NCBI GenBank assembly: GCA_029204225.1
Contig: CM055095.1
Location: forward strand, 66,427,940 to 66,491,939
Source of the DNA: Diphasiastrum complanatum
Lineage: Eukaryota > Streptophyta > Lycopodiopsida > Lycopodiales > Lycopodiaceae
Length of the DNA: 64,000 bases
Direction of reading: 5' to 3'
Shown: piece by piece, positions 5,724-28,450 of the stretch
Layout: every line of letters starts with the position of its first letter
How positions within the stretch are numbered: the stretch's first letter is position 1
Made by a program: the position numbers and the translations under genes
The notes under the pieces: model-generated
Seen by the model: the letters and a program-made list of their open reading frames with translations, nothing else
Told to the model about the DNA's origin: nothing
Database searches by the model: none

Positions 5724-5776
<53 letters not shown>
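5724..5776. repeat. (CT)n tract 1, left border of LINE-1
   Basis: About 53 bases of CT dinucleotide, directly followed by the 5' end of LINE-1. Host-like sequence (AAGCCCACATTTCATT) lies to its left. Confidence 0.95.
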
Positions 5777-5780
<4 letters not shown>

Positions 5781-5860
5781 AGCGATGGTGATGGCGTCCT
5801 GATCCGCCCTGCCCTGGTCCGCATTGCCTTGGTCCTCCCTGCCCTGGTTCTCCTCTCCCG

Positions 5861-6610
5861 TTGACTCCTTCTCCAGCGCTGCCCCTTCCATTGCTATGGC
5901 TTCAAACAAAATGGGGGGGCCTCCATCACCCACCTCTTCTCCTACTTATGCTGGCCAGTCACCTGCTTCTGCTGGCCAGTCAGTATCTATCCGACTTTGA
6001 ATCTCTTAACAGCTATTTACAACATCAGTTCAAAGAAGTGCTACAATTTATCGAGAAATTGCAACTACAGAATCAGACGCCTCATGGAGAAATGATCAAG
6101 GTCAGTCTTCAAAATAAGGACTTACAAAGAACTGTTGACATGATGAAAGTGAAAGGGGTGCAGGATCTTCATTCGCAGCAAGATGTGGAAAGTAAAATCT
6201 CGTCTTTGGCAAAGGACGTGGAAGAAACTCATACTTGGGCTTCGGTTCTTAAGCAAGATGGTAATATTTCCTCCAACCAAGTTCAGCCCTTTTTCGTGAA
6301 TTCTACTTTGGAGAATGTTTTTACAGAACAAGAGAAAGGAGCCAAGAAGGCTCTTAATATCCGAGTTAGGGGTATTCCTAATGGAAACTAGGCCCTTGAG
6401 AAGGCAAAAGACCTTCTTGTATCTAAACTTTCACATCATATTGAGGGATTTGACACTGCTTGGCGGAGCAAATTTGATGATAAGGTCTTATTCATAAAGT
6501 TTCGTTCCATTGAACAACGCAATGCTGCTTTACGCCTTAGAGCTAAGCTCAAAGGTACTTTTATTTTTATGGATGAAGATCTAACACACACAATGGCAAG
6601 CGAGGAAAAT
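5861..6610 (+). pseudogene. LINE-1 ORF1 protein (RNA-binding), broken
   Basis: An ORF of 176 codons runs 5861-6391. After a Pro/Leu-rich start there is a coiled-coil segment rich in Leu, Gln and Lys (about residues 45-125). Then comes LNIRVRGIP, the first strand of an RRM-like domain, just before a TAG stop. The second half is still readable past the stop: VLFIKFRSIEQRNAALRLRA and GTFIFMDEDLT. Its frame is lost near 6600. ORF1 proteins of this kind coat LINE RNA. LINE-3 has the same two halves, which confirms the assignment. Confidence 0.75.
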
Positions 6611-6721
6611 GGTCATTCATGAGGCCTATGGTAGGAATCAAAGAGTGGTCCTTATTGAAGGCAAGCCTAAATTCTACGATAAGATTTCACAATAGGAAGT
6701 CGAGGATCCCGAGCATAGGAA

Positions 6722-9680
6722 CAGCCCGAGATCCCCTCAGCCATTACAAATTGGTTTTTGGAATTGTAACGGTGTGCTTTCATCTTCTTCAGCATGGGAT
6801 TCACTCTTTTTTGCAGAAATGTGATAGTTTGCTCTTAGCAGAGACCCATGAATCACTGTATCGACCTCTTCCAGCTATTCAGGATTATTCATGGCATTCA
6901 GCATACAGGCCTTTCCTGAGAGGAAAAACAACGCGTGGCTCTGGTGGTGTAGCATGTCTTACCAAGGAGGCTTATCGTACTCATTTTAAGCTGCTCAAAA
7001 GTGATCCATTTGCGAGATTTATTTGGTTACAGTTCTTTGGTCGCTACTTGGGGTTACCTCGAGATCTCTTTCTAGCAGTTTGTTATTTTGCACCTCAGAC
7101 ATCAGCTTTTGCAGACTATGGTGGTGACCCATTCCAGGCTTTCTCAGACGATATAGTCAGCTTTGCACAACAGGGCCTTATTCTACTAGCAGGAGATTTC
7201 AATGCTCGCACCAGCACCCAACAGACAGAGTTTCATGCAGATAGTGATTTCCTACAGATCCAGGCTTTGGATGTGGGTTTGGACAGGACCTCTCAAGATG
7301 CAGATACCCCAGCTACACACTTTGGAGAACAATTGATTGGACTAGCAGAAGCTCATTCTTTAGCCATTCTGAATGGCCTATCTCGATGGCCATCATCATT
7401 AGTCTTTACTTGCCATCCACACGGAGGTGGACACAGCGTTGTTGACTACATTGGTTCACCAGCCTTGATTCCATTTCTTCATACTTTTCATATTATACAC
7501 CCTACCATCTCTGAGCACTCTCTATTGCTCCTGTCCCTTGGCCATGCTACTCCTGGTACTGTTACGACACCTCATTCCACCCGTACTTTGCGGAAAAAAT
7601 TGCTTACTTTCAGTCTCTGGCACAGAAACTCATCGATTCCTTGGACCTTCTTCCACCTTCTTCTGGAAGATGTTTTCTAAAAACTCATGTAAGCCAGCTC
7701 CTATTTCCATAGAATCTTGGATTGATTATGCTGCAAAACTTTATACAGTTGACTCTCCTCCCATCTCTCTCTCATCGCGACCATCAGAATTCACCCTTTT
7801 CACTCCGTCTATGATTGGAAACGCCATAAAAAATGGTCTAAGTATGGACTTTCTAGAACCTATCGCCCATATTGTTGCTCCATACATCTCCCACATTTTT
7901 AACCAATCTGTTATTTTTGGCCTTCCCACACCTTGGTGTGCTAACCTTCTACACCCTATACTTAAGGGTGGTGATCCTCTGAATGTAGACAACTATCGCA
8001 CTATTATGATCAGCCACACTATGGCTAAGCTCTATGGTTCGGTTATGCAATCTATCATCAACTCTCATGCGGAGACAGAGGAGTTACATGCTATGGGACA
8101 GGCAGGTTTTAGAGCAGGCTACTCCACAGCTGACCAGATATTCATATTGAGATGTATCATTGAGGCGGCGAAGTCCAGGAAACAGAGAGTCTATTGCTGC
8201 TTTGTGGACTTCCGCAAAGCATTTGATTTGGTTTCGAGACACTTGTTGCTCCAGCGTTTGGCGTCTCTTGGTTTCTCACAGGAGGTCATTGCTGCTATCA
8301 TCACATTATATGAAAGAGTTTTGGCCCGTTTCCGTGATGGAGATGGATGGTCTTCATATATTCATAGTACGATAGGAGTAAAGCAGGGGTGTCCTTTGTC
8401 ACCCACCCTCTTTGCTCTATACATTGACGACCTTGAGCAAATCATTCGGGAAGAAGGTGGAGATGGCAGTCCTCTAGCAGATATTATTATCCCTATCCTT
8501 CTTTATGCAGATGATGTGGTTCTATTATCTAGTTCAGCTGCAGGACTTCAGCGACATCTAGATGCCTTGTATACTTTCTGTCAAATATGGGGGCTGATGG
8601 TGAACATTGGTAAGACTAAGGTTATGGTGTTTAACACCAACAGACAGCATATGAGAGACACTATGTTCTATTATGATGGACAGCTTCTTGAGATAGTGGC
8701 GTCTTACACATACCTGGGCGTTCTCTTCTCTGGTCCATTGCTTTCTTTTAGACCAGCTGTATTGGCTAGGCTCCGCAAGGGGCGCTCTGCTCTTGTTCAG
8801 ATGGAGAGGTTTTCCTCTACTTATTATGTGCATGACCCGGATACACGTTGTCGCCTTTTCTCCTCGACTGTTTCTCCAGTTGCATTGTATTCATCAGAGA
8901 CATGGTGTCCAAGCTTATCTAGAGACACTTGGAGTGGCATCTCACGTTTGCAGATTCACGTGCTTAGCCGGATGATTCGGGCCAAGCGGTCAGTTCCTCA
9001 TGAGATTATTTTGGTGGAGTTTGCTTCTCCTCCACTTCCACTGATTGTAGAGGCTATTTTCAGGATCATCACATTCATTCACAAAGTCTCAAAGCTTGAT
9101 TCTTCCACATACGTGGTAGCGGCTTTTACATCTTCTCGCACTTTGGCCGAGCAGCGGGCTAAGTCCTCATGGTTTCAATATGTTTTGGACTTTCTACATA
9201 GTTGGGGATTATCTATGTCTGACCTCCCAAATGGGACTCATGCCTTCATTCATCGACAGATCTGCAAAGCCATATACACTGTCTGGTCTCACCTGGAACC
9301 ATCACGAGTTAAGCTTCAATTCTATCACATTCACTTTCTTCACCTTGATGCTTCAGGGCTTCCCGTCACACCGAGTTATCTCTCTCAAGCGCTATCTTTT
9401 GGCCTGTGCTACCGCATTGGTCAGCTTCAGGTCTCTTCTCATCAGCTCACTATTGAGACAGGCAGATAGATACACAGACATGCCACGACCCCTACGGATC
9501 TGTCAGTGTTGTACACTACAGGAGGTTGAGGATGAGTTTCACTTTATTTTCAGATGTCTAGCTTACTATGAGATTAGAGGTAGATACCATTGTCTCTATC
9601 GTGACATTCCACTCACACTTGGTTCCTTCTTTGCCTATCCGAGAGATCTTCTCTTTGAGATCTTCTCTTCTATCGAATGA
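6722..9680 (+). pseudogene. LINE-1 ORF2: endonuclease, reverse transcriptase and zinc knuckle, frameshifted
   Basis: The endonuclease starts with WNCNG (6759-6773). A one-base shift in the T run at 6807-6812 leads to the frame carrying AETHE, GDFNARTS, HSVVDY and SEHS. The endonuclease-RT linker (about 7590-7700) is shortened and frameshifted. The RT frame runs to 9469 with NYRTIM, FVDFRKAFD, GVKQGCPLSP and the catalytic YADD (about 8505-8516). A 4-base duplication near 9466-9474 (AGATAGATA) then breaks the frame before the zinc knuckle CQCC...H..RC (9505-9575). The RT core is otherwise open. Known: such proteins nick DNA and copy their own RNA at the nick. No intact product is possible without the shifts. 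Confidence 0.88.
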
Positions 9681-10051
9681 TCAGGATGTTGACCACAGTC
9701 AGCCACATATTACACTTTTCTTTCAGAAAAGAGTTAGGGAGGATACTTTGGACAGTGAGATTGACATCCCAGCTCGACGACTAAAGCTCCGGCGTCTTCC
9801 TCGACCATCCAGATCCAAAGTTCGTATCATGTGCCTCACGCCAGATCACACAGTTTTTCTCTCTCAGTTAGTAAGTTTTTTTCCTCCGCGTAGCTGGTGG
9901 TTAAGCTACTGCATTTGTACCCTCACCATAGCTAGAGGTTAAGCTTTGGTTTTATTTCCGAATTATTTCTCTTTTATTCTATGTTTTGGTTGATAGAAAT
10001 AAGTCCGGCATGGACAATGCTCCTTTATGATGTACTTTTTCTTTGGCTTAT

Positions 10052-10065
10052 GTGCCCAAGGGCAC
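10052..10065 (+). other. LINE-1 3' stem-loop
   Basis: GTGCC-CAAG-GGCAC forms a 5-bp stem with a tetraloop about 15 bases before the tail. Equivalent hairpins stand at the same place in LINE-2 to LINE-5. Confidence 0.6.
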
Positions 10066-10101
10066 TCTGTAGACATTAATCTATTCTATTCTATTCTATT
10101 C

Positions 10102-10105
<4 letters not shown>

Positions 10106-10168: not shown

Positions 10169-10172
<4 letters not shown>

Positions 10173-10640
10173 GGAACATCATACGGCCATCCATCATGGG
10201 CAGATGTACTTAAAAGTTCGACTATTGCTATTCTTCCACCCCCTCCTCCATCTTCATTTATTTCAGCCACGTTCATTAATAGCCATCTGCGAGTTACTTG
10301 GACGAAAACCTTACCTTCATCCAAGTGCAAGAACAAAAAAGGCAAGACAAGAAGCAACCGAAAAGTGGCTTCTCTACCATAATGGCATTATCTAATTTGT
10401 AGAGTGTGCACCTACTGCTATTAACGAGAGTTTGAATTCTAAGATAGAATCAGAGTTAGAGAGGTGAACAGATGTCCAGTTGACTTGTAAATCTATGTAC
10501 CATACCTGGTTATAAAATCTCTTCGTAGTTAGATTTGTTTTAGTTTTGTTGCTCTAACGGCATTGATTTGTCTGGTTGCCATTTTGTGTGATGTACTGGT
10601 TCATCTTATATGCCTATTGGCATGGAAAAGACGTTAATAA

Positions 10641-10641
<1 letters not shown>
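10169..10641 (+). mobile_element. LINE-2: short (~470 b) deletion derivative of the LINE family
   Basis: It lies between two (CT)n tracts. The 5' part contains a readable ISATFIN-type segment like that in ORF1 of LINE-3 and LINE-4. The rest of ORF1 and all of ORF2 are missing. The 3' end is typical of the family: CTTATATGCC-TATT-GGCAT, then AAAAGACGTTAATAAAC running into (CT)n. It carries no coding capacity, so if mobile it would depend on full-length partners. Confidence 0.75.
10610..10623 (+). other. LINE-2 3' stem-loop
   Basis: ATGCC-TATT-GGCAT, a 5-bp stem with tetraloop, 18 bases before the (CT)n tract. Confidence 0.65.

Positions 10642-10695
<54 letters not shown>
10642..10695. repeat. 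(CT)n tract 3, between LINE-2 and LINE-3
   Basis: About 54 bases of CT. LINE-3 begins GTGGAGATGGCGCC right after it. Confidence 0.95.
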
Positions 10696-10698
<3 letters not shown>

Positions 10699-11676
10699 GA
10701 GATGGCGCCTAATCTGTAGCGGGTGTTCCTTCAGATGTCTATGGCCAAAAAAGGGAAGGGGAGCCCACACTCCCTCCCCCACGCACATCTGCCCGTGTCC
10801 ACGCTCCCTCAGCGTTGGCCCAACCTTCTCCTCCACCGATGGCCCCTCCTTCACCATCGCTGGTCTCGCTCACCACCTCTTCATCGCTGGTCTCGCTCAC
10901 CACCTCTTCATCGCTCACCACCTCATCTACCCCATCGCTGGTCCAGCATCCCTCCACATCGCTGGTCCAGATCCCTCCCTGCACATCGCTGAATGCAGAT
11001 TCACCCACCAGTGACCCCCTGTCCACCAGCGACCCCCTGTCCATCAGCGCTACTGACAAGCTGTCCATCAGCGCTACTGACAACTTGCTCTCCATTAACG
11101 CTCCAGAATCTATCATCGCTGCCACTTCCCTCGGTTGCTTTGAGCCATAGTGATGGTACTGCTGATACAGATGGAGTCGTACGTAGGGTGAAGATTGAGT
11201 CAGCGTTGCCTACCAATCTAGTCCACACTCCCTGCCCTCCACCTGCTCACCCATCTTTCGTGATACCTGAGATTTATACACCTGCCAAGTCATTTGAACA
11301 GTACATTCTTTCCTACATCGAGCAGATCAAACACGAATCCACCTCTCTACGAAAGGAAATGAGACAGCTTCAAGGGATCATTCAATCTATGTCCGCTGAG
11401 CGGGTAAGTAATCAAGGAGAACCTACCAAGATTCAAGAATTGGAAGAGAAGATAGAGTAGCATAAAGCTGAGACGAAAACGTGGGCCTCTCTTTTCAAGG
11501 AAGATGTTATGGAAGGTACACCCTCCTTCAACCGAGGCATTTCAGCCACCATATCCAAAGCGAATGCGCGAGTACAAAACCCTGAATATAAGGGTCTGCA
11601 GAGTTGAAGACACCAATGATCCAAAGACTGAAGCAACCAGCTTTCTTTCAAGCACACTCTCCCACCACTCCGAAGG

Positions 11677-12750
11677 TGTTGTAAAGCTACCTTTACAAGC
11701 TTTACTTCCGGTGCCATTGGCGCCAGCTATGTCCCCGGCGCCAGCAGCGCCCCTGCTGCTCCCGGCGCCGCTCCCGGCGCCACTGTGACCAGAATCCAGC
11801 CGGCGCCAAGTTCCTATGGCTGAAAATCTTTGATCGGTTCTAGCGGAGTCCAGAGAGCTCAGATCGATGTGCAATCACCTCACACGATCTAGGCATGATT
11901 AAAGGAAGCCTGGGGATCAATAAAATCTAGAGAGAGAAAATGACTTTCTAGAAAGAGAAAATCCTAGAGAGAGAAAAACGTGCTTTACCAGCTTAGGTAG
12001 AGTGCTTGTTATGAGGGGAGGTGCCGAATCACACCAATACTATAAGGGAGTGCGGGTTGCGACTCAGGGCGAGCTCCAACCAAGTCTCAGCCTCCCTTGC
12101 TGGAATGTTGTCATGGCTCTCGCCTTGGCATGCTAGCGCCCCGGAGACTAGGGTCGTATCCCGGGACGCCAGCGGTATGCCGTCGGGACCATTCGGTCCG
12201 TGACGCCAGCGGTATGCTGTCGGGACCATTTGGTCCAGGAACTGGTTGTTTCCATATCTGTCGCGGCTTGTGGTTCTGAGTGTTCCTTGCATGAACGTGA
12301 ATGGGTTAAGCTCTTGGGGAACGGGCTCTAACCTGTCGGCTGAGTTGGATGGCTTGCTTGGGTGGATGTTACCTGTTTATGGCTGTCCAGTCTGGCGTGG
12401 CGCCAGGTTGGCTTCCAGCGCTCGTGACGAAGCTTTCAGTTGGTTAAGTCTGATGTAAGTCAGACGGCTTGCTTGGAATGGATGTTACTCGTTGGTAACG
12501 AAGCTTCGAGTTGGTTAAGTTTGACGTATGTCGGGCGGCTTGCTTGGAGGGAAGTCACCCACGTCGGGACTCCCGATCTGGCATGGCGCCAGGTTGGATC
12601 TCAATGTTGGTTTCGGAACTTCAAGTTGGTTAAGTCTGATCGTTGTTGGCGAGTTGGCTGCTTGTATGTCGAGTGGGTTTGGATGGCAAGAGTTGAAGGC
12701 TGGGAAGCTAAGTCGTGGTTCCCGGCTCCCTTTGGGATGCCTGCGCTACA
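11677..12750 (+). repeat. 5' LTR of the LARD-like element
   Basis: Begins TGTTGTAAAG and ends GCGCTACA. The first 150 bases carry several GGCGCC palindromes. The 3' half holds four degenerate units around TTGGTTAAGTYTGA and GGCTTGCTTGG. Confidence 0.93.
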
Positions 12751-12752
12751 TG

Positions 12753-12764
12753 TGGTATCAGAGC
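12753..12764 (+). promoter_or_regulatory. Primer-binding site of the LARD-like element
   Basis: TGGTATCAGAGC, two bases after the LTR, complementary to the 3' end of plant initiator tRNA-Met. Confidence 0.9.
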
Positions 12765-12840
12765 CGACTGGCCGGTCAGCTATGCGGATCTCACGGAAAT
12801 GGCCACGGTTTGGGGTTCATCAAGACAACTGTTGTGCAAG

Positions 12841-13228
12841 GTGCTGCCCACAGTGTAAGCACGGGTGCGTCCACGGTCGGGGTGGTCGGCAGAACGGGGG
12901 ACTTGATGAGTCAAGGTGCTGCCCTTGAGGTGTAAGCACGGTCAGTTCTCGCGGTTCGGGCCTGGCGCTGTCTGCACGTAGGACGGATGAGGCAAAGTGC
13001 TGCCTAGGTAGGTGAAAGCACGGTCTGTACCTTGTGGGGTGCGGGGCGACATATTCGAACTGTACGGGTTAACCATTGAGACAGAGATGCTGCTCGAATT
13101 CGGGTGTAAAGCACGGGTGGTTAGCTGCCGGTGCGGGATAGCTGCCGATCGTTTAGCTATAAGGGCTATCGACCAAAAAGTGGTGGGGCGTGACTGAGGC
13201 AATGTACTGCTTAATGGTGAAAGCACGG
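12841..13228 (+). repeat. Five spaced hairpin motifs in the leader of the LARD-like element
   Basis: GTGCTGCC...GTAAGCACGG or close variants begin near 12841, 12916, 12997, 13087 and 13203. The arms GTGCT and AGCAC are complementary, so each can fold into a short stem. Spacing is 75, 81, 90 and 116 bases. The intervening sequence is only weakly similar. Confidence 0.7.
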
Positions 13229-13502
13229 ATGGTTGGAGGGGTGTCCTATGTGGGCTGATTCTGTGATCGATTTGTATGGGCGCGGCCAGGCAAAGGTCCG
13301 TTGGCAGGACCATCTCAAAGGGGGACCTTGTCTTTGTTACTTGTTAGTAAACCTGCCTGAGTGTCTTACTTGTACGTATTCGTGGTGAGTCTTAGTACTC
13401 GTGCTTTGCCTGGTTTGCATGATTGCTTGTGATACAAGGAGCTGATGGCTCGAGAAGGAACCTTTTCTTTTGAAGGCTGATACCATCAAACAAAGAGGAC
13501 TA

Positions 13503-14004
13503 CAGAATCTGTGGGGCGGATTTGCAGTTCAAGTACTCACACGTGAACGACAACGAAACGACTCAATGTTTGCAAAGGATGGATGGCTAGCCTGTTTCTT
13601 AGGTTAGTTTCATTTGCGACAACGCCCACCAGACGCAAGCAGGAAGTCAAAAGTTGGAAAGGGCCATTTCAGGGGAGATCTTCTATGGAGCAGTTGGTCT
13701 TCATTTTGGGACGGCCACCTTCGGAACTGAAACTCACTGAGCATGAGCGATATCCAGAATCTGTGCGGCGGATTTGCAGTTCAAGTACTCGCACGTGAAC
13801 GACAACGAAATGACTCAATGTTTGCAAAGGATGGATGGCTAGCCTGTTTCTTGGGTTAGTTTCATTTGCGACAACGCCCACCAGACGCAAGCAGGAAGTC
13901 AAAAGTTGGAAAGGGCAATTTCAGGGGAGATCTTCTATAGCAGTTGGTCTTCATTTTGGGACGGCCACCTTCGGAACTGAAACTCACTGAGCATGGGTGA
14001 TATC
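13503..14004 (+). repeat. Tandem duplication, two units of about 250 b, inside the LARD-like element
   Basis: CAGAATCTGTG begins at 13503 and at 13755. Each unit passes through GGCGGATTTGCAGTTCAAGT, CCCACCAGACGCAAGCAGG and GGACGGCCACCTTCGG and ends GATATC. A few substitutions and a 3-base gap separate them. Confidence 0.88.
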
Positions 14005-14397
14005 CAGTATCAGTTGGGTTTTTCCTCAAAGGGGAAAAGACTAGGATCCTCTTCAGAGATTGGCAACAAGTTGGATCGAGCCATAATCCTAGCAGATGGG
14101 AAGCAAAGTGTTGGAAAGGCTTTTTGTCCGAAGAACTCTACTCTAAGTCCGATCAGCTGATTTATTAAGTGGAGGGGAACTATCACACACACCTCTCTCT
14201 TGGGGCAAATTTTGAATGAAAGTTGATCAAAATGGGGGCAAATTCAAGGTGACCTAGCCATACTCACACGAGGAGACTGGCGAACTTTGGACCTAATAAG
14301 TTGACAAGTTTTTGTTGTGGAAAGGAAAGTTTGTTATAGGCTTTCTCTGGACCAGCAATGATGAGGAAACATATGAGTACGCTGGCTTGTGTTACGT

Positions 14398-14761
14398 GTA
14401 AGGCAGCTGATCAATGAAGGAACTGTGAAAGTTGAGTCTTGCATAGAGACTTGGTATTTCGAACGGACGCTAAGGGATAGTTCGCGTTGAGATCGGACTA
14501 GTGCAAACTCTGGGTGCATGTTTCTGATTCAAAGAGAGCTACTTGAAGCTAAGCTCGATGTACACTTCTTGTTTTGACTGTGAGGCAACTAACCAGTGAT
14601 GGAATTGTGAAAGTCAAGTTTTGCGCGACGGACATGGTGCTTCAAACAAACGCGAAGAGATAGTTCGGATGCGGATCAAACTGGTGCGACCCTTTGGCTT
14701 TCCACGAGGTCAATGGTTACATTTGGGCTGATTCAAAGAGCTACTTCAAGCTAAGTGAGAG
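14398..14761 (+). repeat. Degenerate direct repeat, units of about 182 b, inside the LARD-like element
   Basis: The units start GTAAGGCAGCTGA (14398) and GTGAGGCAACTAA (14580). They share GTGAAAGT, ATAGTTCG, GATTCAAAGAG, GCTACTT and AAGCTAAG in order. Older than the 250-base duplication. Confidence 0.6.
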
Positions 14762-15327: not shown

Positions 15328-15341
15328 AAAGGTGGGGTGGA
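15328..15341 (+). other. Polypurine tract of the LARD-like element
   Basis: AAAGGTGGGGTGGA directly before the 3' LTR, as needed for plus-strand priming; one T interrupts it. Confidence 0.7.
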
Positions 15342-18414: not shown

Positions 18415-18434
18415 GTCATGGACATTTATAAAGA

Positions 18435-18437
<3 letters not shown>

Positions 18438-18516
<79 letters not shown>
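18438..18516. repeat. (CT)n tract 4, between LINE-3 and LINE-4
   Basis: About 79 bases of CT, the longest tract here. LINE-4 starts GCGTGCGCGCC directly after it. Confidence 0.95.
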
Positions 18517-18518
<2 letters not shown>

Positions 18519-18586
18519 GTGCGCGCCATGGTTCCTCGTGCCATCTCTATCCATAGCAGGTCTCGATCATCCTGTACCTCCACCTC

Positions 18587-18826: not shown

Positions 18827-19736
18827 AGTTCGTGGGATCCCAGATACACAAGTTACTCATCTAGAGACTCCGCGACCTCGGCTTCTCCACTGACATCGTT
18901 CTTGCTGTTATGGCACTTTATGAGCGTGTTCTGGGATGTTTCCGACATAGCAATGGCATATCAGATCACATTTGGAGCACTATTGGGGTGAAGCAGGGTT
19001 GCTCCCTCTCACCAATCCTCTTTTTACACAGTGTGGTGGTGCTGGTTGCAGGCTTGGGGACATCTTGATTGCTTTCCTCCTTTATGTTGATGATGTGGTA
19101 TTGGTCTCACCTACCAGAGAGGGTCTACAGCAACAGTTGGATTGCTTGCATGAGTTTTGCACCAGATGGGGCCTAGGGGTGAACATTGGGAAGACTAATT
19201 TTATGGTCTTCAAAACTAATGCCTTTTTTGGGCATCAGTTTTGAAAAAAGGCACCAAACCAAGCGCTCCCATCTCTTCGGTTATCTCAGCCACCATCTTG
19301 GAAGAGAAATCACGAGACCAAAAAGTGCACAACATTAGAGTTCGTGGGATCCCAGATACACAAGTTACTCATCTAGAGACTCCGCGACCTCGGCTTCTCC
19401 ACTGACATCGTTCTTGCTGTTATGGCACTTTATGAGCGTGTTCTGGATGTTTCCGACATAGCAGTGGCATATCAGATCACATTTGGAGCACTATTGGGGT
19501 GAAGCAGGGTTGCTCCCTCTCACCAGTCCTCTTTTTACACAGTGTGGTGGTGCTGGTTGCAGGCTTGGGGACATCTTGATTGCTTTCCTCCTTTATGTTG
19601 ATGATGTGGTATTGGTCTCACCTACCAGAGAGGGTCTACAGCAACAGTTGGATTGCTTGCATGAGTTTTGCACCAGATGGGGCCTAGGGGTGAACATTGG
19701 GAATACTTATTTTTTGGTCTTCAACACTTCTCGAGC
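18711..19736 (+). repeat. 513-b direct tandem duplication in LINE-4
   Basis: TTTTTTGGGCATCAGTTTTG occurs at 18711 and 19224. The two copies are almost identical through GGTGAACATTGGGAA and differ by a few single bases. The junction (about 19221) joins AACTAATGCC to the repeat start. Confidence 0.9.
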
Positions 19737-20848
19737 ATTCATGCAGCGCTGGAGCTTACTTTGGGTGGACAGGTTCTAGAGGTGGTCCCCTCCTACACAT
19801 ACTTGGGGATCCTTTTCTCAAGTCCTACTTTTAGCATGAGACAGGCCGCTACCACTCGACTGGGGAAGGGACATGCCTCCCTTGTTCAGCTAGAGAGATT
19901 TTGTTTCCGGAAGTCCATCCAGGATGCTCGCAGTAAGTGTCGCCTCTTTGATAGCATTCACCCCCACGGCTCTATATGCGGCAAAGGCATGGTGTACAGG
20001 TCTTCCCTTTTCACACTGGGCCAATCTTTCACAACTACAAACCACTCTAGCTCGACTGATCCAAGCGAAGCCTTCTGTTCCACATGAGATTCTCCTGGCC
20101 GAGTTTGCAGTCCCACCTATTCAAATCGAGGCAGCTCTTCAACTCATTACCTATACACAAAGGATACAGGCGTTACCAGAGATAGACAGACGATACATAC
20201 AGACTGCACTATCCTCCTCACAACGTCTTCATGGTCAGGGCTACAAATTATAATGGTTCTCTCAGGCATCCCACCTCCTACTTGAGTCATTTGGTATATC
20301 CATCACAGAGCTTCCCTCGGGCACCCATCATTATATCAGACGATTCCTCTATCGAGCATATTTAGAGCGGACTTGGCGTAACCAGCTAGGGGTTAAGCCA
20401 GCTTTCTACCAGACACATTTCTTGGACCTGGATGCATCTGGGAGCCCAGTCATGCCACGCTACTTGGAGTCGGGACTCACATTGCCTCAGATTCACACTG
20501 GGACAGCTCAGGGTATCTTCTCATCAGCTAGCTATTGAGACGGGGAGGTTCCATGGTATTCCTAGAGAGGATCAGATTTGCCAGTTATGCTCCCTAGGTG
20601 AGGTGGAGTCTGAGGGGCACTTTATCTTTAGATGCCCAGTACACTATGAGATCAGAGGGCGATATCATTGCCTGTTTCGAGACATGCCTACCACTCTACG
20701 CTCCCTCATAGCCTATGAGGACCCACGATGTGTCGCTTTGTTGGTATGCGAGATGTTCATACTACGGAGAGACTTATATGGGACATCCCAGCATTTTACC
20801 TCACCATTGATTACTTATTCTTTACTAGGCGGAGATCGCATGATTTAG
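18850..20848 (+). pseudogene. LINE-4 ORF2 remains: RT middle (twice) and C-terminal zinc knuckle
   Basis: Each duplicate carries STIGVKQGCSLSP and LLYVDDVVLVS, where YVDD replaces the YADD of its relatives. A third of the catalytic region is displaced by an out-of-frame FLHSVVV segment. From 19740 the text continues SYTYLGILFSSPTFSMRQAA and LVQLERFCFRKSIQDARSKC. A TAA stands at about 20251. The knuckle frame (20432-20848) has CQLCSLGEVESEGHFIFRCP. Multiple frame changes make it non-coding. Confidence 0.82.
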
Positions 20849-21222
20849 TGCCTGAGAATGAGGATTATGACGACGACGAGGATGATAGCCGCTCACATGC
20901 TCATAGAGATCAGAGGCAGTGTACCCCCCACCATCACGTTACTACCAAGATCACCAGACATCCTATGCAGAGACGTTACTACACATGCTCATGCTCACAG
21001 ACGACGCCAGCAGGCTCCAGTGATCTCTCATGCCATAGCTCGTATTACATCTTTTTACAGCAGCAGCAGCAGCAGCATCATAGGCTTGACACCTTGACAT
21101 GGATACAGATGATCTATTTGAGTTTTTAGTTTGTACTGGATGTTTTCTTAATTACAATTTTGGAGACGTTTTATACGCTCCCATGGTTACCACATACTTG
21201 ACATATACTTCATTAGTCTTAT

Positions 21223-21236
21223 ATGCATTTTGGCAT
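21223..21236 (+). other. LINE-4 3' stem-loop (one mismatch)
   Basis: ATGCA-TTTT-GGCAT: four pairs hold; the A opposite G next to the loop is a mismatch. Confidence 0.5.
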
Positions 21237-21270
21237 GGAAAATACATTAATAAAGCTTTCTTTCTTTCTT

Positions 21271-21276
<6 letters not shown>

Positions 21277-21336
<60 letters not shown>
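21277..21336. repeat. (CT)n tract 5, between LINE-4 and LINE-5
   Basis: About 60 bases of CT after a (TTTC)n transition. LINE-5 starts GTGGAGATAGC at 21337. Confidence 0.95.
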
Positions 21337-21339
<3 letters not shown>

Positions 21340-21549
21340 GAGATAGCTCCACGCGGATCTGCTCCTGCTGTCCCTCGCGCCATCTCTTCACTCCCTCCAC
21401 GTCGGACCACCCGCTCCCCCCTCGCTACTATCTCCTCCCCCTCCCGCGCTGAAAACAGCTCCTCCATCGCTGCTGAAAACACCTCCTCCATCGCGGCTGA
21501 AAACAGCTAACCCCCCCTCTTTGCAAGCAATACCTCCTTCGCTGGAAAC

Positions 21550-22540
21550 ACCCCCTTCATTACAGGCAGGGATATATTATTCTTCATGGAGACACACGAG
21601 AGCCCAAAGCGAGGACTTCCTTCTTTTCCTGGATATAGATGGGATTCAGTATTCCGACGAGAGACTAGATCTGCTAGTGGACGTGGTTCAGGTGGGGTCG
21701 CCTGCTTGTACAGGGAGGCTCTTCACTCGAGTATTGACTTCATCCGACGTGACGAGTAGGCCCGCTACACCTGGACTCGCATTGTGGGTCAGGATATTGG
21801 CTTGGATAGAGATCTTTTTATTGCGGCATGTTACTTTCCACCAGAGTCCTTGTCTTTTGCTGAGGGTATTGGATCTCCATATCATGACCTCTCACCAGAT
21901 ATTATCAGATTTTCAGAGCGGGGGCATATTCTCCTCACGGGATTTTAATGCCCGGACATCTTCGCGACAGATAGAGTTCTTCGACACCACTGATGAGCTA
22001 CGTGTTCGTGCCTTGGACAGTGATATGCTTGGAGTTACCAGGACCTCCGCGGATAGTTTTGGACCTACTTCTTCATATGGTGAGCACTTATTGCAGTTTG
22101 GAGAGGCACATGAGCTAGCCATTTATAATGGCTTACCCTGCTGGCCACATTCAGACAGTTACACATGCCACCCTCACAGTGGAGAACATAGTGTCGTTGA
22201 CTATCTCATGGGGTCACCATCCTTTGTACCCACAGTTTCTGACTTCCACATTTTCCCCACCACCCTTTCTGATCACTCATTTCTCTCCTTCGATATCGGC
22301 CACCTCCCACCCTCATCCATCTACACTACCCACGCTTACCCGAGCACCCACGTACACATTTGATCCCACTTACATGCCGCTATACCGGCAGTCCTTAGCT
22401 TCACTTTTACACTCCGTAAGAAACGCTCCCATGATGATTCTGAAGGGAAACGTCTCATTGACCTTCTTTTCAGCTCTTCTTCGGGCGCTTTCTGGCGCGA
22501 GTTCATTCCTCGCTCTCCACCACCTCTCTTGGAAGACCTC
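21550..22540 (+). pseudogene. LINE-5 endonuclease, frameshifted
   Basis: Pieces in three frames: GRDILFFMETHESPKRGLPS near 21560, SGRGSGGVACLYR near 21690, LDRDLFIAACYFPPES near 21800, then DFNARTSSRQIEF, HSVVDYLMGSP and LSDHSFLSFD in the long frame ending at 22363. The N-terminal WNCNG strand is lost with the ORF1 deletion. The linker region is shortened. Confidence 0.8.
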
Positions 22541-23509
22541 CGCATATGGACTGATTATGCTACTAGCCTGTACACGGTTCCTACCGACTCACCTATCGCC
22601 ATATCTCCACGGCCACCTGAGTTCTCCTTTTTCACATCTGACATGGTACTTGCAGCCATTAAGAAGCTGAATTCCCACAAGGCCAGAGATATCGAAGACC
22701 TTGAATCTGAACTCCTTTCCCATGCCTCCGACTTACTCACCCCCATTATAGCCACCCTTCTTAACTCTGCGGTTGTCTCTGGTTTTCCGTCCTCCTGGTG
22801 CACTAACATCATCCAACCCATCCATAAGAATGGTGACCCCATGATTCCGAGTAACTACCGCACCATCATGATTGGGCATGTCCTGGCGAAATTATATGGT
22901 ACTATACTGCAGTCTGTTGTGAGCTCAGAGGCGGAGACTAGGAGACTACATGCCATGGGTCAGGCTGGTTCCCGAGCACATTATTCTACGGCATATCACA
23001 TCTTCACATTGCGAGCCTTGATTGAGGAGGCTAAGCACAGGAGAGAGAGGGTTTACTGTTGTTTTGTGGACTTCAGGAAAGCCTTTGATTCTGTTCCTCG
23101 CTCATTGCTCATTCAGAGACTCCGAGCACCGACATTGTTCTTGTTGTGATTGCACTTTATGAGCGTGTCCTTGGTTGTTTCCGGCATAGCAGAGGCATAT
23201 CTGAGCACATCTGGAGCACTATTGGGGTGAAGCAGGGTTGTTCCCTCTCACCAGTCCTCTTTGGCTTGTATATTGATGAGTTGGAGAGAGCCATTACACA
23301 AGGTGGTGGTACTGGCTGCAGGCTTGGTGACATCTTGATTGCTATCCTCCTTTATGCTGATGATGTGGTGTTGGTCTCACCGACCAGAGAGGGTCTACAA
23401 CGACAGTTGGATTGCTTGCATGAGTTTTGCACCAGATGGGGCCTAGGGGTGAACATTGGGAAGACCAAGGTTATGGTCTTCAACACTTCGAGGGCATTCA
23501 TGCAACGAC
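22529..23509 (+). pseudogene. LINE-5 reverse transcriptase, first part
   Basis: The frame 22529-23149 has NYRTIMIGHVLAKLYGTILQ, GQAGSRAHYST and CCFVDFRKAFDSVPR. A frameshift near 23130 leads to YERVLGCFRHSRG, GVKQGCSLSPVLFGLYIDEL and YADDVVLVSPTREG. The text stops at the copia insertion inside FNTSRAFMQR. With only one frameshift in this stretch it is one of the better preserved RT copies. Confidence 0.85.
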
Positions 23510-23964
23510 TGTTAGAAGTAATAAATGATAATGTTAGTTTCCCATAGGTTACTTTGACCCAAAAGGTCGAGACTTGTGTAACCATGAGTTAAGTTTATTA
23601 TTTAGACCATGTTAAGTCAGTTTTAGTTGAGTTGGACCCAATTTTGGTCCAATAGTAATTCGTGGGTCCAAGTAAAGTCTAATTATGTTAAGGGACCCTA
23701 TCTTGACTTTTGGGGGTGCCCTATAATTAGTAGTGGGTCTTGGAAGGTTCTAGAACTTAGGGTTTGGAAGAGTCTAGGCCCTTGGAAGGCCTATTTATAT
23801 GTACCCAGTGTTCATTTGTAATTCATTCCCTTTCAAGCATTGCTACTACTTTCTCTCTCCTTGAGGGCGCCTAACCCTCTCCCTCTTCTTCTTCTTCCTC
23901 TTTTTCTTCTTCTTGTATATGGAGATTGAATGTTAGAAGGATCTTGGCACTTTGATTTCCTACA
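23510..23964 (+). repeat. 5' LTR of the small copia-like element
   Basis: Begins TGTTAGAAGT and ends TTTCCTACA. A TATTTATA motif at about 23792 could be its TATA box. A CTT-rich pyrimidine block follows. Confidence 0.92.
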
Positions 23965-23976
23965 TGGTATCAGAGC
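23965..23976 (+). promoter_or_regulatory. Primer-binding site of the small copia-like element
   Basis: TGGTATCAGAGC, abutting the LTR; initiator tRNA-Met type. Confidence 0.92.
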
Positions 23977-24554
23977 CATGGATCTTCTATGCTTGATTTA
24001 GGGTGCCCTACCAAAAGAGATCGTCTTCACTTAGGGATCACAAAAATTCAGCACCTTTGCTGATTTTTTGGAGTGAAGATCCAACAAGCAATTTCTACTC
24101 TTCTGATTGGGCTGAAAAATCAGCACATTTACAAAGTGAAGATCCGCTTCTTTTTGCTTGTTTCCAGGTGTGGAAGAAGGCGCTAATTTTTTTGTGATGA
24201 TCCGATCACATTCCGAGGCTGAAAATTGGATAGCATATTACCATTTGTAGGGTGTTGCAATAGCCCTATCCGTGTGTGTATTGTTCACACTTTTTGGCAA
24301 GAAAGAAGGGTTCCGAAAAAAGCTTTGTTGGAGGCTAACCTGATTCTTTGCATGTTGGTTTTTGAGTTTGTAATGCAATTTCAGGCTGAAATTTTCAGCA
24401 CACAAGGCTTGTAGGAGGGTGAGTTCCTACATCCATCTAATGTGTGGTTTCGACACATTCCGGTGTTGATTTGTCAGATTTGATACTTGCTGGTTTTTGT
24501 GTCTTTTAGGGTACATTTAGGGTTTGAAAAAATTTATCTTCTTGGCTGGTTCTT

Positions 24555-25718
24555 ATGGCAAGAGATTTGGGAGCGATTCGTACTTGTTCAGGTGAAGATA
24601 TGTTGGATTGCACCAACTTTTCTTCATGGAGTTGCAAGCTGAGATTTTGCATCGACTTGATGATCAAGATTTTATCGGTAACAAGATCTATCTTATATCA
24701 TTTGAGATTTTGCAAGACCTCTAAAAGTGCTTGGGAAACACTTTTAAAGATGTACCGAATAAAGGATTCATCATCATGCTTTCTCCTCTCTACTTCATCC
24801 TCTTTGAAGGTAGAAGAGCAAAGTCATGCAAAGTTTGATCATTGTCTTTCTACAAGTACAAGTTTGCATCGAAATGTTGGTATGGTAAAGCATTCTTCTT
24901 CTCTTGAGCCATTTGTAGCAAATGATGGATGCATTAGTGAAGAACTTCATGAGCAAGCTTCTCAAGATAATGTTTTAGAAAAGGCTGAAATCAAGCATTC
25001 TTTGAAGCCATTTTGTACTAATGGAGGAGGGGAACAAATCATGTCAATTAGTACATTGGTTCAAAGTGGCGTGTTGCTGGATTTTTTGAGTGTTCAAAGT
25101 GGCAAGCTGTTGGTTTTTTTCTTGAAGATGGTGGACACCAGATTCAGCCATAGTTTATTGATCATTTTCAGTCTATGTTACATCGTGAGCATCCTATTAT
25201 GCATCGGGAACGGCCTGCGGAAGGTTTTTGGACAGCAAGGTCCACATTTGGAACACTTTGGAGAGCAAAGTGTTGGTGATTTTGTGGCTGTTGGACAGCC
25301 TGCTACAGCCTCTTGTTGGTTGTCCGAGTCTTTGCGGGATAGCAAAGCATCTTTTTACCTTGGAGGAAACACACATGCCTCACCAAAATCAGTACCTTAT
25401 GCTGATTTTCATGTTTTGATGCTTACTTCTTATGATGACGGTGTTGTCTTACCTAGTGTTGGTGAGCAAATCATTGATAGTAAGATTCGGGAGGATGTGA
25501 TGGTAAAAGAGTATCATATTCTTCTTTATGTTTCTCGTGGTAAGAAGACTTATGGAATCATGTGGGAACCATTGATGGATTGCAAATCCATATTTTGGCT
25601 TGTGGTTGGTTTTTTAGTTACTTACTTTGGATGGAGCATGCTTGTCTTCACTCTTCGACTTGATGCTATTGCACTTCGTATTCTACATCTCTTCTACATC
25701 GGGCATGATTGGGGCTGA
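24555..25718 (+). CDS. 387-aa ORF of the small copia-like element, function unknown
   Basis: The ORF is uninterrupted and fills most of the interior. Residues about 12-90 look like the start of a copia Gag: DCTNFSSWSCKLRF, then SKSAWETLLKMYRIKDSSS. No zinc knuckle follows. The remainder matches nothing I recognise. It has two hydrophobic stretches that could span a membrane (FSHSLLIIFSLCYIVSILLC and SIFWLVVGFLVTYFGWSMLV). It could be a captured and rearranged host sequence, or simply decayed pol read in another frame. An open frame this long among broken neighbours is notable but may be chance. Confidence 0.45.
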   Translation: MARDLGAIRTCSGEDMLDCTNFSSWSCKLRFCIDLMIKILSVTRSILYHLRFCKTSKSAWETLLKMYRIKDSSSCFLLSTSSSLKVEEQSHAKFDHCLSTSTSLHRNVGMVKHSSSLEPFVANDGCISEELHEQASQDNVLEKAEIKHSLKPFCTNGGGEQIMSISTLVQSGVLLDFLSVQSGKLLVFFLKMVDTRFSHSLLIIFSLCYIVSILLCIGNGLRKVFGQQGPHLEHFGEQSVGDFVAVGQPATASCWLSESLRDSKASFYLGGNTHASPKSVPYADFHVLMLTSYDDGVVLPSVGEQIIDSKIREDVMVKEYHILLYVSRGKKTYGIMWEPLMDCKSIFWLVVGFLVTYFGWSMLVFTLRLDAIALRILHLFYIGHDWG

Positions 25719-25889
25719 GATTTTGGCTACTTCGACTACTTCAAGCGAAGTTTTTTTTGGCAGCATTAAGCTTGGACAGCAGCTACATCTTTTCTTTTTC
25801 GGCTACATGGAGTTTTGGGCAGCATGCAACACTTTGCATTTTTGTTGCAATTTTTCATACTTCATGTTATGTTTTTTACATTATCATTT

Positions 25890-25897
25890 AAGGAGGG
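25890..25897 (+). other. Polypurine tract of the small copia-like element
   Basis: AAGGAGGG immediately before the 3' LTR. Confidence 0.85.
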
Positions 25898-26352
25898 TGT
25901 TAGAAGTAATAAATGATAATGTTAGTTTCCCATAGGTTACTTTGACCCAAAAGCTCGAGACTTGTGTAACCATGGGTTAGGTTTATTATTTAGACCATGT
26001 TAAGTCAGTTTTAGTTGAGTTGGACCCAATTTTGGTCCAATAGTAATTCGTGGGTCCAAGTAAAGTCTAATTATGTTAAGGGACCCTATCTTGACTTTTG
26101 GGGGTGCCCTATAATTAGTAGTGGGTCTTGGAAGGTTCTAGAACTTAGGGTTTGGAAGAGTCTGGGCCCTTGGAAGGCCTATTTCTATGTACCCAGTGTT
26201 CATTTGTAATTCATTCCCTTTCAAGCATTGCTACTACTTTCTCTCTCCTTGAGGGCGCCTAACCCTCTCCCTCTTCTTCTTCTTCCTCTTTTTCTTCTTC
26301 TTGTATATGGAGATTTAATGTTAGAAGGATCTTGGCACTTTGATTTCCTACA
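25898..26352 (+). repeat. 3' LTR of the small copia-like element
   Basis: Same length as the 5' LTR, no indels. Differences include AAGCTCGAG for AAGGTCGAG, CATGGGTTAGG for CATGAGTTAAG, TCTGGGCC for TCTAGGCC, TTTCTATG for TTTATATG and GATTTAATG for GATTGAATG. Confidence 0.92.
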
Positions 26353-27747
26353 GCGACAGGAGCTTACTTTGGGCGGGCAGATTCTGGAGGTGGTCCCTGC
26401 CTACACATACTTGGGGGTCCTTTTCTCAGGTCCTACTTTTAGCATGAGACAAGCCGCTACCACTCGACTAGGGAAAGGACATGCCTCCCTTGTTCAGCTA
26501 GAGCGATTTTGCTTCCGAAAGTCTATCCAGGATGCACACAGTAAGTGTCACCTCTTCGATACCATTGTTACCCCCATGGCTTTATATGCGGCAAAGACAT
26601 GGTGTGTAGGTCTCCCTTCTTCACACTAGGCCAGTCTCTCACGATTACAAACCACCATGCTAGCTCGGTTGATTCGAGCGAAGCCTTCTGTTCCACATGA
26701 GATTCTCCTGGCCGAGTTGCAGTTCCACCTATACAGATCGATACAGATCGAGGCAGTTCTTCAGCTTATCACCTATATACATAGGATACAGGCGTTACCA
26801 GAGATAGACAGGCGATACATACAGGTTGCACTATTCTCCTCACAGCATCGTCACGATCAGGGCTACAGGCTATCATGGTTCTCTCAGGCCTCTCACCTCC
26901 TACTTGTATCATTTGGATCTCCATCACAGAGCTCCCCTCTGGCACACATCAGTATATCAGACGCTTCCTTTATCACACATATCTAGAGCGGACTTGGCGT
27001 AACCAGTTAGGGGTTAAGCCAGCTTTTTACCGCACTCATTTCTTGGAGCTAGATGCATCAAGGACCCCGGTCATGCCGCGCTACTTGGACTCGGGATTGT
27101 CACATTGCCTCAGATTCACATTGGGGCAGCTCAGGGTGTCCTCTCATCAGCTAGCTATTGAGACTGGGAGGTTCCACGGTATTCCCAGAGAGGAGCGGAT
27201 TTGCCAGTTCTGCTCTCTAGGTGAGGTGGAGGTTGAGGAGCATTTTATATTTAGGTGCCCTGTATATTATGAGATTAGAGGGCGATATCATTGCCTGTTC
27301 CGAGAGACGCCTACCACTCTACGCTCTCTAATAGCTTATGAGGACCCACGGTGTGTCGCTCTGATGGTACACGAGATGTCCAGACTATGGAGAGATTTAT
27401 ACGAGACACCCCAGCATTTTACCTCACAGCCATTGATTACTTCGTTCTTTACTAGACGGAGATCGCGTGATTTAGTACCTGAGGATGAGGATTATGATGA
27501 GGATGACGACGAGGATGTTGGCCGCTCTCATGCTCATAGAGATCAGAGACAGTGTACCTCCCACCATCATGTTACCACCAGGATTACTAGACATTCTACG
27601 CAGGGGCGTACTACTACTACTACACATGCACGTGCTCATGCTCACAGACGCCGCCGGCAGGCTCCAGTGCTTTCCCATTCTGTGGCTCGCATTACATCTT
27701 TTTACAGCAGCAGCACAGCCTTGACATCTTACCCTAGATACATATGA
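26353..27747 (+). pseudogene. LINE-5 ORF2, C-terminal part
   Basis: It resumes RQELTLGGQILEVV, SYTYLGVLFSGPTFSMRQAA-type sequence and TMLARLIRAKPSVPHEILL, with frameshifts near 26630 and 26880. It then stays open to 27747 through YLERTWRNQLGVKPAFYRTH, SSHQLAIETGRFHG and the zinc knuckle CQFCSLGEVEVEEHFIFRCP. An acidic stretch (EDEDYDEDDDEDV) and a His/Arg-rich tail end the protein. LINE-4 has the same acidic tail. Confidence 0.82.
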
Positions 27748-27879
27748 TTATTATTATGCGCATTCTCGCATACGTGTCTATTTTAGTTTGCAGTAGATGT
27801 TTTCTTTATTACAGTTTGGAGACGTTTTTATACGCTCCCATGGTTACCACATACATGACATGTACTTCATTAGTCTTAT

Positions 27880-27893
27880 ATGCCTTTTGGCAT
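27880..27893 (+). other. LINE-5 3' stem-loop
   Basis: ATGCC-TTTT-GGCAT, perfect 5-bp stem, 19 bases before the tail repeat. Confidence 0.65.
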
Positions 27894-27927
27894 GGAAAAG
27901 ACATTAATAAAGCTTTTCTTTTCTTTT

Positions 27928-27932
<5 letters not shown>

Positions 27933-27985
<53 letters not shown>
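27933..27985. repeat. (CT)n tract 6, between LINE-5 and LINE-6
   Basis: About 53 bases of CT after a (TTTTC)n transition. Confidence 0.95.
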
Positions 27986-27987
<2 letters not shown>

Positions 27988-28450
27988 ACCAGGGTTGGAT
28001 TGCTTACAAGAGTTCTGCACCAGATGGGGCCTAGGGGTGAACATTGGGAAGACCAAAGTTATGGCCTTCAACACTTCTCGAGCATTCATGCAAGGACAAG
28101 AGCTCACTTTTGATGGACAGGTTCTAGAGGTGGTCTCTTCTTATACATACTTAGGGATCCTATTCTCGGGTCCTACTTTCAGTATGAGACAGGGTGCTAC
28201 CACTTGACTTGGGAAGGAGCATGCCTTCCTGGTTCGGCTAGAGTGTTTTCGGAAGTCCACCCAGGATGCTCGTAGTAAGTTTCGACTTTTTGATACCATT
28301 GTCACCCTCACAGCTCTATATGCGGTAGAGACATGGTGTACAGGTCTCCCCTCTTCACACTGGGCTAGTCTTTCACGATTACAGACCACTGTGTTAGCTC
28401 GGTTGATTCTTCTGAGATTCAAATCAGCATGAGATTTCTAATGGCTGAGT
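27986..28450 (+). mobile_element. LINE-6, 5'-truncated RT fragment (first half)
   Basis: It begins inside RT just downstream of YADD (CGACCAGG, with about 20 bases missing, then LDCLQEFCTRWGLGVNIGKT). It continues through SYTYLGILFSGPTFSMRQGA and HWASLSRLQTTVLARLI with several stops. It breaks at ATGGCTGAGT, where the Copia-1 LTR starts. The matching second half is found inverted at 37963-38433. Confidence 0.85.

Follow-up and report, generated by a model that had tools for sequence, protein, structure and literature searches.

A lineage of LINEs with an APE-type endonuclease in Diphasiastrum complanatum probably uses target-primed reverse transcription, judging from sequence comparison, to enter (CT)n microsatellites in a single orientation, and keeps its target. 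The window, the whole stretch of DNA analysed, comprises 64,000 nt of the forward strand (assembly GCA_029204225.1, CM055095.1:66,427,940-66,491,939). It contains six (CT)n tracts, all perfect, each reading CT on the + strand and 52-78 bp long (a first-pass annotation had given 53-79 bases, which is corrected here), and beyond these no CT, TC, GA or AG run of at least 20 bp was present in the whole 64 kb. The tracts and the elements between them are listed in order.

5725..5776, + strand: (CT)n tract, 52 bp, 5' border of E1
5777..10104, + strand: LINE E1, with ORF1-like region, APE-type endonuclease, reverse transcriptase (RT), 3' hairpin and (TCTAT)n ladder
about 6799-7257, + strand: APE-type endonuclease match of E1 (Pfam PF03372)
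7538-9469, + strand: RT open frame of E1, 643 aa
10105..10168, + strand: (CT)n tract, 64 bp
10169..10642, + strand: LINE E2, short remnant with ORF1-like start and a 3' end of the E4/E5 type
10643..10695, + strand: (CT)n tract, 53 bp
10696..18438, + strand: LINE E3, starting GTGGAGATGGC, with an LTR element nested inside
11677..16415, no strand assigned: LTR element nested in E3, 1074-bp direct repeats at 11677-12750 and 15342-16415
16698-17228, + strand: endonuclease ORF of E3 (PF03372)
18439..18516, + strand: (CT)n tract, 78 bp
18517..21274, + strand: LINE E4, 3' end ATTAATAAAG(CTTT)n
21275..21336, + strand: (CT)n tract, 62 bp
21337..27931, + strand: LINE E5, starting GTGGAGATAGC, 3' end ATTAATAAAGC(TTTTC)n, with a nested LTR element
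23510..26352, no strand assigned: LTR element nested in E5, 455-bp direct repeats at 23510-23964 and 25898-26352
27932..27985, + strand: (CT)n tract, 54 bp
27986..28409, + strand: LINE E6, 5'-truncated inside the RT, 3' part lost
about 52427..53284, + strand: seventh LINE relic, rearranged, beside LTR-retrotransposon remains and without a CT border, hence a counter-example

Each of the six tracts exactly abuts a LINE 5' border and five of them also abut a LINE 3' border, with CT always on the LINE sense strand. The first LINE base is the base after the tract in all six elements, as placed by BLAST in E1, E3, E4, E5 and E6; the start of E2 was set by eye, its BLAST match spanning the 3' end only, and its ORF1-like start, also called by eye, is matched by other LINE flanks among the 3' junctions described below. 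A tract follows the 3' end in E1-E5, preceded in E1, E4 and E5 by short (TCTAT)n, (CTTT)n and (TTTTC)n ladders. The array thus stands much as the first-pass annotation had described it: six LINEs directly after CT tracts, five of them ending in one in the same orientation, GTGGAGAT common to the starts of E3 and E5, and a last element truncated at the tract border, where E6 is cut inside the RT (its LINE similarity fades at about 28409). The list of six holds for the array and had missed the decayed seventh piece.

Alignment identity among E1, E3 and E4-E6 is 64-74%, and E4 contains an internal tandem duplication of ~509 bp. The earlier description of a LINE family is therefore right as to a LINE lineage and wrong as to a single family: by their sequences the elements of the window are at least three diverged subfamilies. 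The divergence of the units rules out an array made of one family or by tandem duplication. A related explanation, that the array grew by unequal recombination or segmental duplication between CT tracts instead of by repeated insertion, finds a parallel in LINE loci elsewhere that were duplicated together with their flanks (L035-L037, L038/L040, L043/L044); we consider it very improbable, as E1, E3 and E4/E5 differ to the extent just given, the units are truncated at different points, and isolated insertions exist.

Chromosomal 3' ends of one subfamily were collected by similarity to one 3' end, 40 of 2654 candidates being scored; these best matches gave 34 ends, of which 30 are distinct, a set in which young copies are favoured by the way it was chosen. 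A pyrimidine tail, (CTTT)n followed by (CT)n, is present at all 30 distinct junctions, in one case only 5 bases long, and none of the 30 carries a poly(A) tail. The CT run on this side reaches at least 8 bases in 25/30 junctions, at least 12 in 22/30 and at least 20 in 16/30. It is shorter than 8 bases in the remaining five (L035, L039, L046, L051 and L070), which indicates that an insertion can sit at the 3' edge of a tract; L035 and L051, despite their short 3' CT, carry 98 and 74 bases of CT on the 5' side. The proposal that insertion takes place between CT on both sides needs rewording for the 3' side, which consists of (CTTT)n plus (CT)n with little CT at those five junctions. Past the tail, another LINE begins within 14 bases in 8 of the 30 junctions, an inverted LINE piece follows in one, and a LINE ORF1 lies 204-449 bases further on in three.

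These tails raise the possibility that the element itself supplies the CT as its 3' tail, and that later copies merely enter the tails of earlier LINEs with no taste for CT microsatellites of the host. The (CTTT)n(CT)n tails do look in part like products of RT slippage, and the eight junctions passing into another LINE fit as well. The 5' borders make this reading improbable. CT lies against the LINE start in all six copies that were followed upstream (70 bases in L054, 98 in L055, 74 in L056, 32 in L057, 76 in L053 and about 11 in L058), and in L054-L057 no LINE directly precedes the tract, as is the case for E1, where the sequence before 5725-5776 has no LINE match. L056 is probably a full-length copy; its start, GTGGAGATGGC, lies one base past the tract (compare GTGGAGAT at the starts of E3 and E5); L056/L051 is inserted in an LTR related to the LTR nested in E5, and the LTR sequence resumes on both flanks. 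In L010, the repeat that flanks the LINE is present in two further, LINE-free copies, where CT either touches the same border or lies no more than a few bases from it. CT or pyrimidine-rich runs thus occur in paralogues, lacking a LINE, of the L010 flank and of the LTR that hosts L056; no orthologous empty site was found. A majority of copies in unique flanks with ordinary target duplications, or CT on the 3' side only, had been named beforehand as patterns that would speak against targeting; in the part of the genome covered, the six copies all have CT on the 5' side, and the proposal of target-specific insertion into (CT)n is supported by 6/6 5' borders in the window, 6/6 upstream borders elsewhere and the 25/30 junctions with 3' CT of at least 8 bases.

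A mechanical recheck of all long stretches found a CT run of at least 8 bases at the 5' border of 13 of 30 LINE pieces. Six of the 17 CT-less borders have an explanation: in two the LINE resumes behind a nested LTR element, two belong to tail pieces, one results from the edge of the stretch and one lies beside an LTR-element ORF on the opposite strand. The other 11 are without explanation and are mostly decayed pieces (C15 9203, C15 11767, C5, L010, L024, L025, L028, L053 2044, an antisense piece in L053, L058 2363 and window 52427). They include all six pieces from random loci, none of which (0/6) has CT at its 5' border; being decayed or interrupted, these neither refute nor support CT targeting. 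From one random locus a second same-orientation LINE array was reached, on C15. The genome is rich in CT, so some contact with CT is cheap: 200 kb chosen at random from it contain 21 CT/GA runs of at least 20 bp. Chance contact, for which the 17 CT-less pieces also speak, is nevertheless scarcely credible, since such runs make up 0.87% of the sample, yet CT, on the same strand each time, adjoins the start of the six array elements of the window and of all six other copies followed upstream.

Insertion into (CT)n could proceed as follows. The GA strand would be nicked within the microsatellite, often close to its future 3' edge, and the freed 3' end, ending in GA, would base-pair with the element RNA at its CU-rich end, made up of hairpin, AAUAAAG and CUUU/CU. 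Slippage at the start of reverse transcription would produce the (CTTT)n ladders, and the 5' end of the element would be joined to the CT remaining upstream. With CT or CTTT left on either side, the target would not be consumed, and a later copy could insert next to an earlier one, building head-to-tail arrays. A variant of this scheme holds that the endonuclease is non-specific and that the site is chosen at priming, through the pairing of a GA-rich end at the nick with the CU-rich tail of the RNA. Tail and target are indeed complementary, and the five junctions with little 3' CT agree with it; nothing decisive stands on the other side, since L055 and L056, with CT at 5' and none at 3', require nicking at the edge of the tract, and this variant allows that too. 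We regard this variant as rather unlikely.

The elements are non-LTR retrotransposons with an APE-type endonuclease. Exo_endo_phos (PF03372) is matched at 3.8e-06 in E1 and 4.8e-12 in E3, upstream of the RT (RVT_1, PF00078), which is matched at 8.6e-32 in E1; the ORF1 pieces gave no Pfam match above the cut-off. The 3' hairpin has two-sided changes at 2/5 pairs in nine rows, with the 3' end of L010, where the hairpin is broken, left out. In single-sequence folds, E5 alone is significant (z -3.1), the other six having z of -0.2 to -1.9. An endonuclease profile searched against the PDB (E up to 10) matched 14 chains, mostly human L1 endonuclease/ORF2. The remaining chains are LR1- and LTX-named, which we take to be L1 endonuclease with R1 or Tx1 loop grafts, together with one exodeoxyribonuclease, APEX1 and four unrelated by name. 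Neither TRAS nor an R1 endonuclease as such is among the 14, and a single-sequence PDB search with the E3 endonuclease returned no match. In an RT tree built without an R1 RT reference, E1 and E5 pair with support 93; the nearest rows are the proteins P0008, P0012 and P0013, then Adiantum, with Taxus more distant. R2 and L1 are joined to the tree by very long branches, and for this reason the tree is not used to name a clade. Among named proteins, the closest relatives come from Adiantum, Ceratopteris, Taxus and Chlorella. In a PF00078 profile search of the same genome, eight loci were extracted from the 150 scored matches listed; all eight are gypsy-type LTR-retrotransposon sequence by eye and were not used.

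Animal LINEs that target microsatellites have an APE-type endonuclease, insert into simple repeats in one orientation and keep the target on both sides. Such elements of the R1 and Tx1 groups, TC-specific ones included, were reportedly described by Kojima and Fujiwara in 2003 and 2004. The elements studied here resemble them in all three respects and differ in host group and in an endonuclease profile that matches mostly L1-type PDB chains. To our knowledge, target-specific LINEs have been described from animals and single-celled eukaryotes. The accessible part of PMC4640811 places most target-specific LINE families in the early-branched, Tx1 and R1 groups, with microsatellites among the targets. 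It also describes some HERO-clade families that target microsatellites, as here, with a restriction-like endonuclease, whereas the endonuclease here is of the APE type. Plant L1 LINEs share with our elements an APE endonuclease plus RT and, in one monocot lineage according to the available text of PMC3747384, a stem-loop 3' end. They differ from ours in their tails: in Table 3 of that source, of 233 flowering-plant L1 families 224 have an (A)n end, nine have no terminal repeat and no family ends in a different repeat, whereas the junctions here lack poly(A). A further difference is that the ORFs scanned here yielded no RNase H domain. As far as the accessible parts of PMC3747384 and PMC4640811 go, they are consistent with this distribution of target-specific LINEs and with flowering-plant LINEs mostly carrying poly(A) tails.

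Microsatellite site choice is already known from animal LINEs, and the land-plant host would be the new part; no plant LINE with a CT target was found in the literature searched, outside whose coverage most subscription papers lie. It is quite possible, and we propose it tentatively, that a land-plant LINE clade apart from animal R1/Tx1 evolved (CT)n insertion, often at the tract edge, that keeping or renewing the tract turns microsatellites into growing same-direction arrays, and that land plants have here their first target-specific LINE lineage. With its clear target, its many copies and the insertion sites that they catalogue naturally, such a plant lineage would allow the origin of APE-type target choice to be studied outside animals, and it illustrates how microsatellites could sustain a mobile element that does not exhaust its target. 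Nested LINE clusters in a green-lineage genome are also formed by Zepp of Chlorella/Coccomyxa, according to the accessible part of PMC3446292. Zepp is listed with (A)n tails in the table seen in PMC3747384, whereas the tails here are pyrimidine. It forms about one cluster per chromosome, as far as the same part of PMC3446292 tells, whereas the copies listed here, spread over 18 chromosome-size sequences, lie at several places on C1, C4, C6, C7 and C8.

The window (C4:66427940-66491939 of the 1.74-Gb genome) contains exactly six CT/GA dinucleotide runs of at least 20 bp, all pure CT on the + strand and 52-78 bp long, and the first base after each tract is the start of LINE sequence (E1-E6, the six LINEs of the array). 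The tracts begin as follows.

5725, + strand, first (CT)n tract
10105, + strand, second (CT)n tract
10643, + strand, third (CT)n tract
18439, + strand, fourth (CT)n tract
21275, + strand, fifth (CT)n tract
27932, + strand, sixth (CT)n tract

A LINE 3' end precedes five of the six tracts, in some cases with a short ladder between: (TCTAT)n for E1, (CTTT)n for E4 and (TTTTC)n for E5. The array of LINEs following CT tracts, as described in the first-pass annotation, is upheld as a whole; its tract lengths were each off by one base.

In E1 an endonuclease/exonuclease domain (PF03372, 3.8e-06) is followed by a reverse transcriptase (RT; PF00078, 8.6e-32) in a 643-aa open frame, and E3 also matches PF03372 (4.8e-12); the ORF1-like region upstream of the endonuclease has no Pfam match above the cut-off. 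DNA alignments of E1, E3 and E4-E6 with each other give 64-74% identity, and E4 and E5 reach 83-84% over longer matches, so that several subfamilies have a common site preference. Nested LTR elements lie inside E3 and E5, and E4 has an internal tandem duplication (509 bp, 98% identical, window 18709-19728). A seventh LINE relic at 52427-53284, rearranged with its C-terminal part ahead of the RT part, adjoins LTR-retrotransposon remains and has no CT border. Among the best 120 of 579 RT relatives, those with names are from Adiantum, Chlorella and Taxus, together with a possible contaminant labelled Enterobacter; Ceratopteris and Adiantum occur among the endonuclease relatives. In the RT tree E1 and E5 pair, with three unnamed proteins nearest and Adiantum next. 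Searched against PDB at E up to 10, the endonuclease profile matched 14 chains, mostly L1 endonuclease or ORF2 (best L1-type chain 8.7e-04). The top row is a short match, to the chain SAKe6FE, and the 14 also include chains that bear the names LR1 and LTX. The elements may or may not belong to R1.

According to PMC4640811, LINE targets include microsatellites, and most target-specific families belong to the early-branched, Tx1 and R1 groups. A table in PMC3747384 gives an (A)n tail for 224 of 233 flowering-plant L1 families, none with another repeat, and CATA, CA, CAA or TAA repeats for 8 of 15 algal L1 families. Zepp of Coccomyxa forms nested clusters, about one per chromosome (PMC3446292). 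None of these LINE cases is a CT-targeted plant LINE, nor was one found in the open literature searched, whose coverage was partial and partly on plants.

For the 5' side, six copies were fetched with 5.2 kb of upstream sequence; the choice rested on the 3' junction (five copies with no LINE following, plus L047) and not on the 5' end. In all six the LINE start abuts sense-strand CT, of 70 (L054), 98 (L055), 74 (L056), 32 (L057), 76 (L053) and about 11 bases (L058). Another LINE's 3' end precedes the L058 tract, and an apparent one, recognized by eye from a hairpin and GTTAATAT, precedes that of L053, with a LINE match 300 bases earlier. Directly before the tracts of L054, L055, L056 and L057 there is no LINE match, that upstream of L057 ending about 1.2 kb before the tract. 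L056 begins with GTGGAGATGGC, one base past the tract, much as E3 and E5 begin with GTGGAGAT. On their 3' side L055 and L056 have (CTTT)n-like tails only, which places these copies at the 3' edge of the tract.

The 3' junctions were collected with the last 372 bases of E5 in a DNA search that listed 41 matches, the best 40 scored of 2,654 candidates. Left out were the window itself, a second weak match adjoining another copy and five matches on small contigs, of which four have the same score as a chromosomal place and one, on C3807, does not; all 34 remaining junctions were read, 30 of them distinct (L035=L036=L037, L038=L040, L043=L044). Among these best-scored matches, tails are pyrimidine in 30 of 30 distinct junctions. 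Among the matches listed, 29 tails have at least 20 bases (L046 has 5), and the longest CT run is at least 8 in 25, at least 12 in 22 and at least 20 in 16. A same-direction LINE starts at most 14 bases past the tail in eight of the 30 (L038, L039, L043, L046, L049, L061, L064 and L067), again among the matches listed; an inverted piece lies behind the L069 tail, and ORF1 sequence 204-449 bases past the tail in L042, L048 and L052. Nothing LINE-like follows in 18 distinct junctions, 14 of the 34 stretches being just 200 bases long. The tails of L045, L060 and L065 continue into ACAC sequence, as in compound microsatellites.

L043 and L044 are an identical LINE junction and flank at two places on C4; their CT runs measure 68 and 126 bases, and it seems that the tract changed in length once the locus had been duplicated. 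L035, L036 and L037 are a single LINE insertion whose 3' flank is the same on C18, C6 and C1, so a larger duplication or element probably carried it along. In L069 an antisense piece follows the tail and then a sense piece (18-base and 29-base matches), an order that resembles, in this one case, the twin-priming inversions known from L1.

A short hairpin just 5' of AATAAAG keeps its pairing across subfamilies, with 93% of cells paired against at most 42% for slid versions (nine rows, the broken L010 hairpin left out). Two-sided changes occur at two of five pairs, a count not unusual against shuffles (196/500); pairing and score together were equalled by 1/500, the structure having been read from the same sequences. 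Folding energy is marked for E5 only. The simplest account is target-primed reverse transcription at (CT)n, in which the GA strand would act as primer and the CU-rich RNA end as template, and slippage could yield (CTTT)n; in this scheme we infer the nick, its strand and the source of the (CT)n specificity.

Twenty random 10-kb stretches (L010-L029) contain 21 CT/GA runs of at least 20 bp in 200 kb (0.87% of bases); with L009 added, runs of at least 10 units number 22 for CT, three for AC and none for AT. CT/GA microsatellites are abundant in the genome, clearly more so than AC or AT ones. Protein-level matches to these LINEs occur in six of the 20 stretches (L010, L012, L024, L025, L026, L028), two of which include a 3' end: that of L010 is followed by 375 bp of CT, that of L024 by (CTTT)n and a short CT ladder. 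Downstream of L012 (on C15) lies a second array, with five LINE 3' ends, all oriented alike (positions of the joined stretch).

10668, LINE 3' end, by profile
11212, LINE 3' end, by profile
11808, LINE 3' end, by BLAST
13220, LINE 3' end, by profile
19770, LINE 3' end, by profile

The count excludes a further hit of the profile at 16945 (E 0.29). The tails are pyrimidine-rich, one containing an A, and LINE BLAST matches restart at CT runs, one of about 50 bases at 10715 and one of about 30 at 13306; near 11243 a restart was seen by eye only.

The borders were rechecked mechanically by splitting the BLAST LINE pieces of all long stretches at CT runs, which gave 30 pieces. A CT run of at least 8 within 80 bases was found at the 5' border in 13 of the 30, and such a run at the 3' border in 10. 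Six of the 17 without 5' CT are explained and 11 are not.

window 16401 and 26345, resume past nested LTR elements
window 10604 and C15 13102, tail pieces
L057:2, cut by the stretch edge
window 37958, adjoins an LTR-element ORF of the opposite strand
C15 9203, C15 11767, C5 2549, L010, L024, L025 and L028, unexplained
L053 2044, antisense L053 piece, L058 2363 and window 52427, unexplained

All six random-locus pieces fall among the 11 unexplained, most of which are decayed; the C5 piece adjoins an LTR element. Because of this result, insertion of these APE-endonuclease LINEs into (CT)n in one orientation, with the tract retained, moves from very likely to likely, and the proposal that they are the first target-specific LINE lineage of land plants from evenly balanced to marginally doubtful; two rival readings were raised slightly.

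The repeat following the L010 LINE has two further copies in that stretch without a LINE. In both, CT lies at roughly the corresponding border; it is short in one copy and in the other spans 116 bp, with a C run at its end. The L056 copy lies inside an LTR related to that nested in E5, with LTR sequence continuing on both flanks; the window LTR has a pyrimidine-rich stretch in the region matching this site, where the exact insertion point is not alignable. Both comparisons are of paralogous, not orthologous, empty sites. Another repeat (L020:3305-3408, L023:4229-4255) starts with ACGTTGGGATAGAATAGCTTTGGG on the CT strand directly after a CT run, and is perhaps a second kind of CT-tied element. 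L022:390-452 and L026:1285-1307 share a repeat (GTGTGAAATGAAATCATGTGCA...) whose end meets a CT run at each place.
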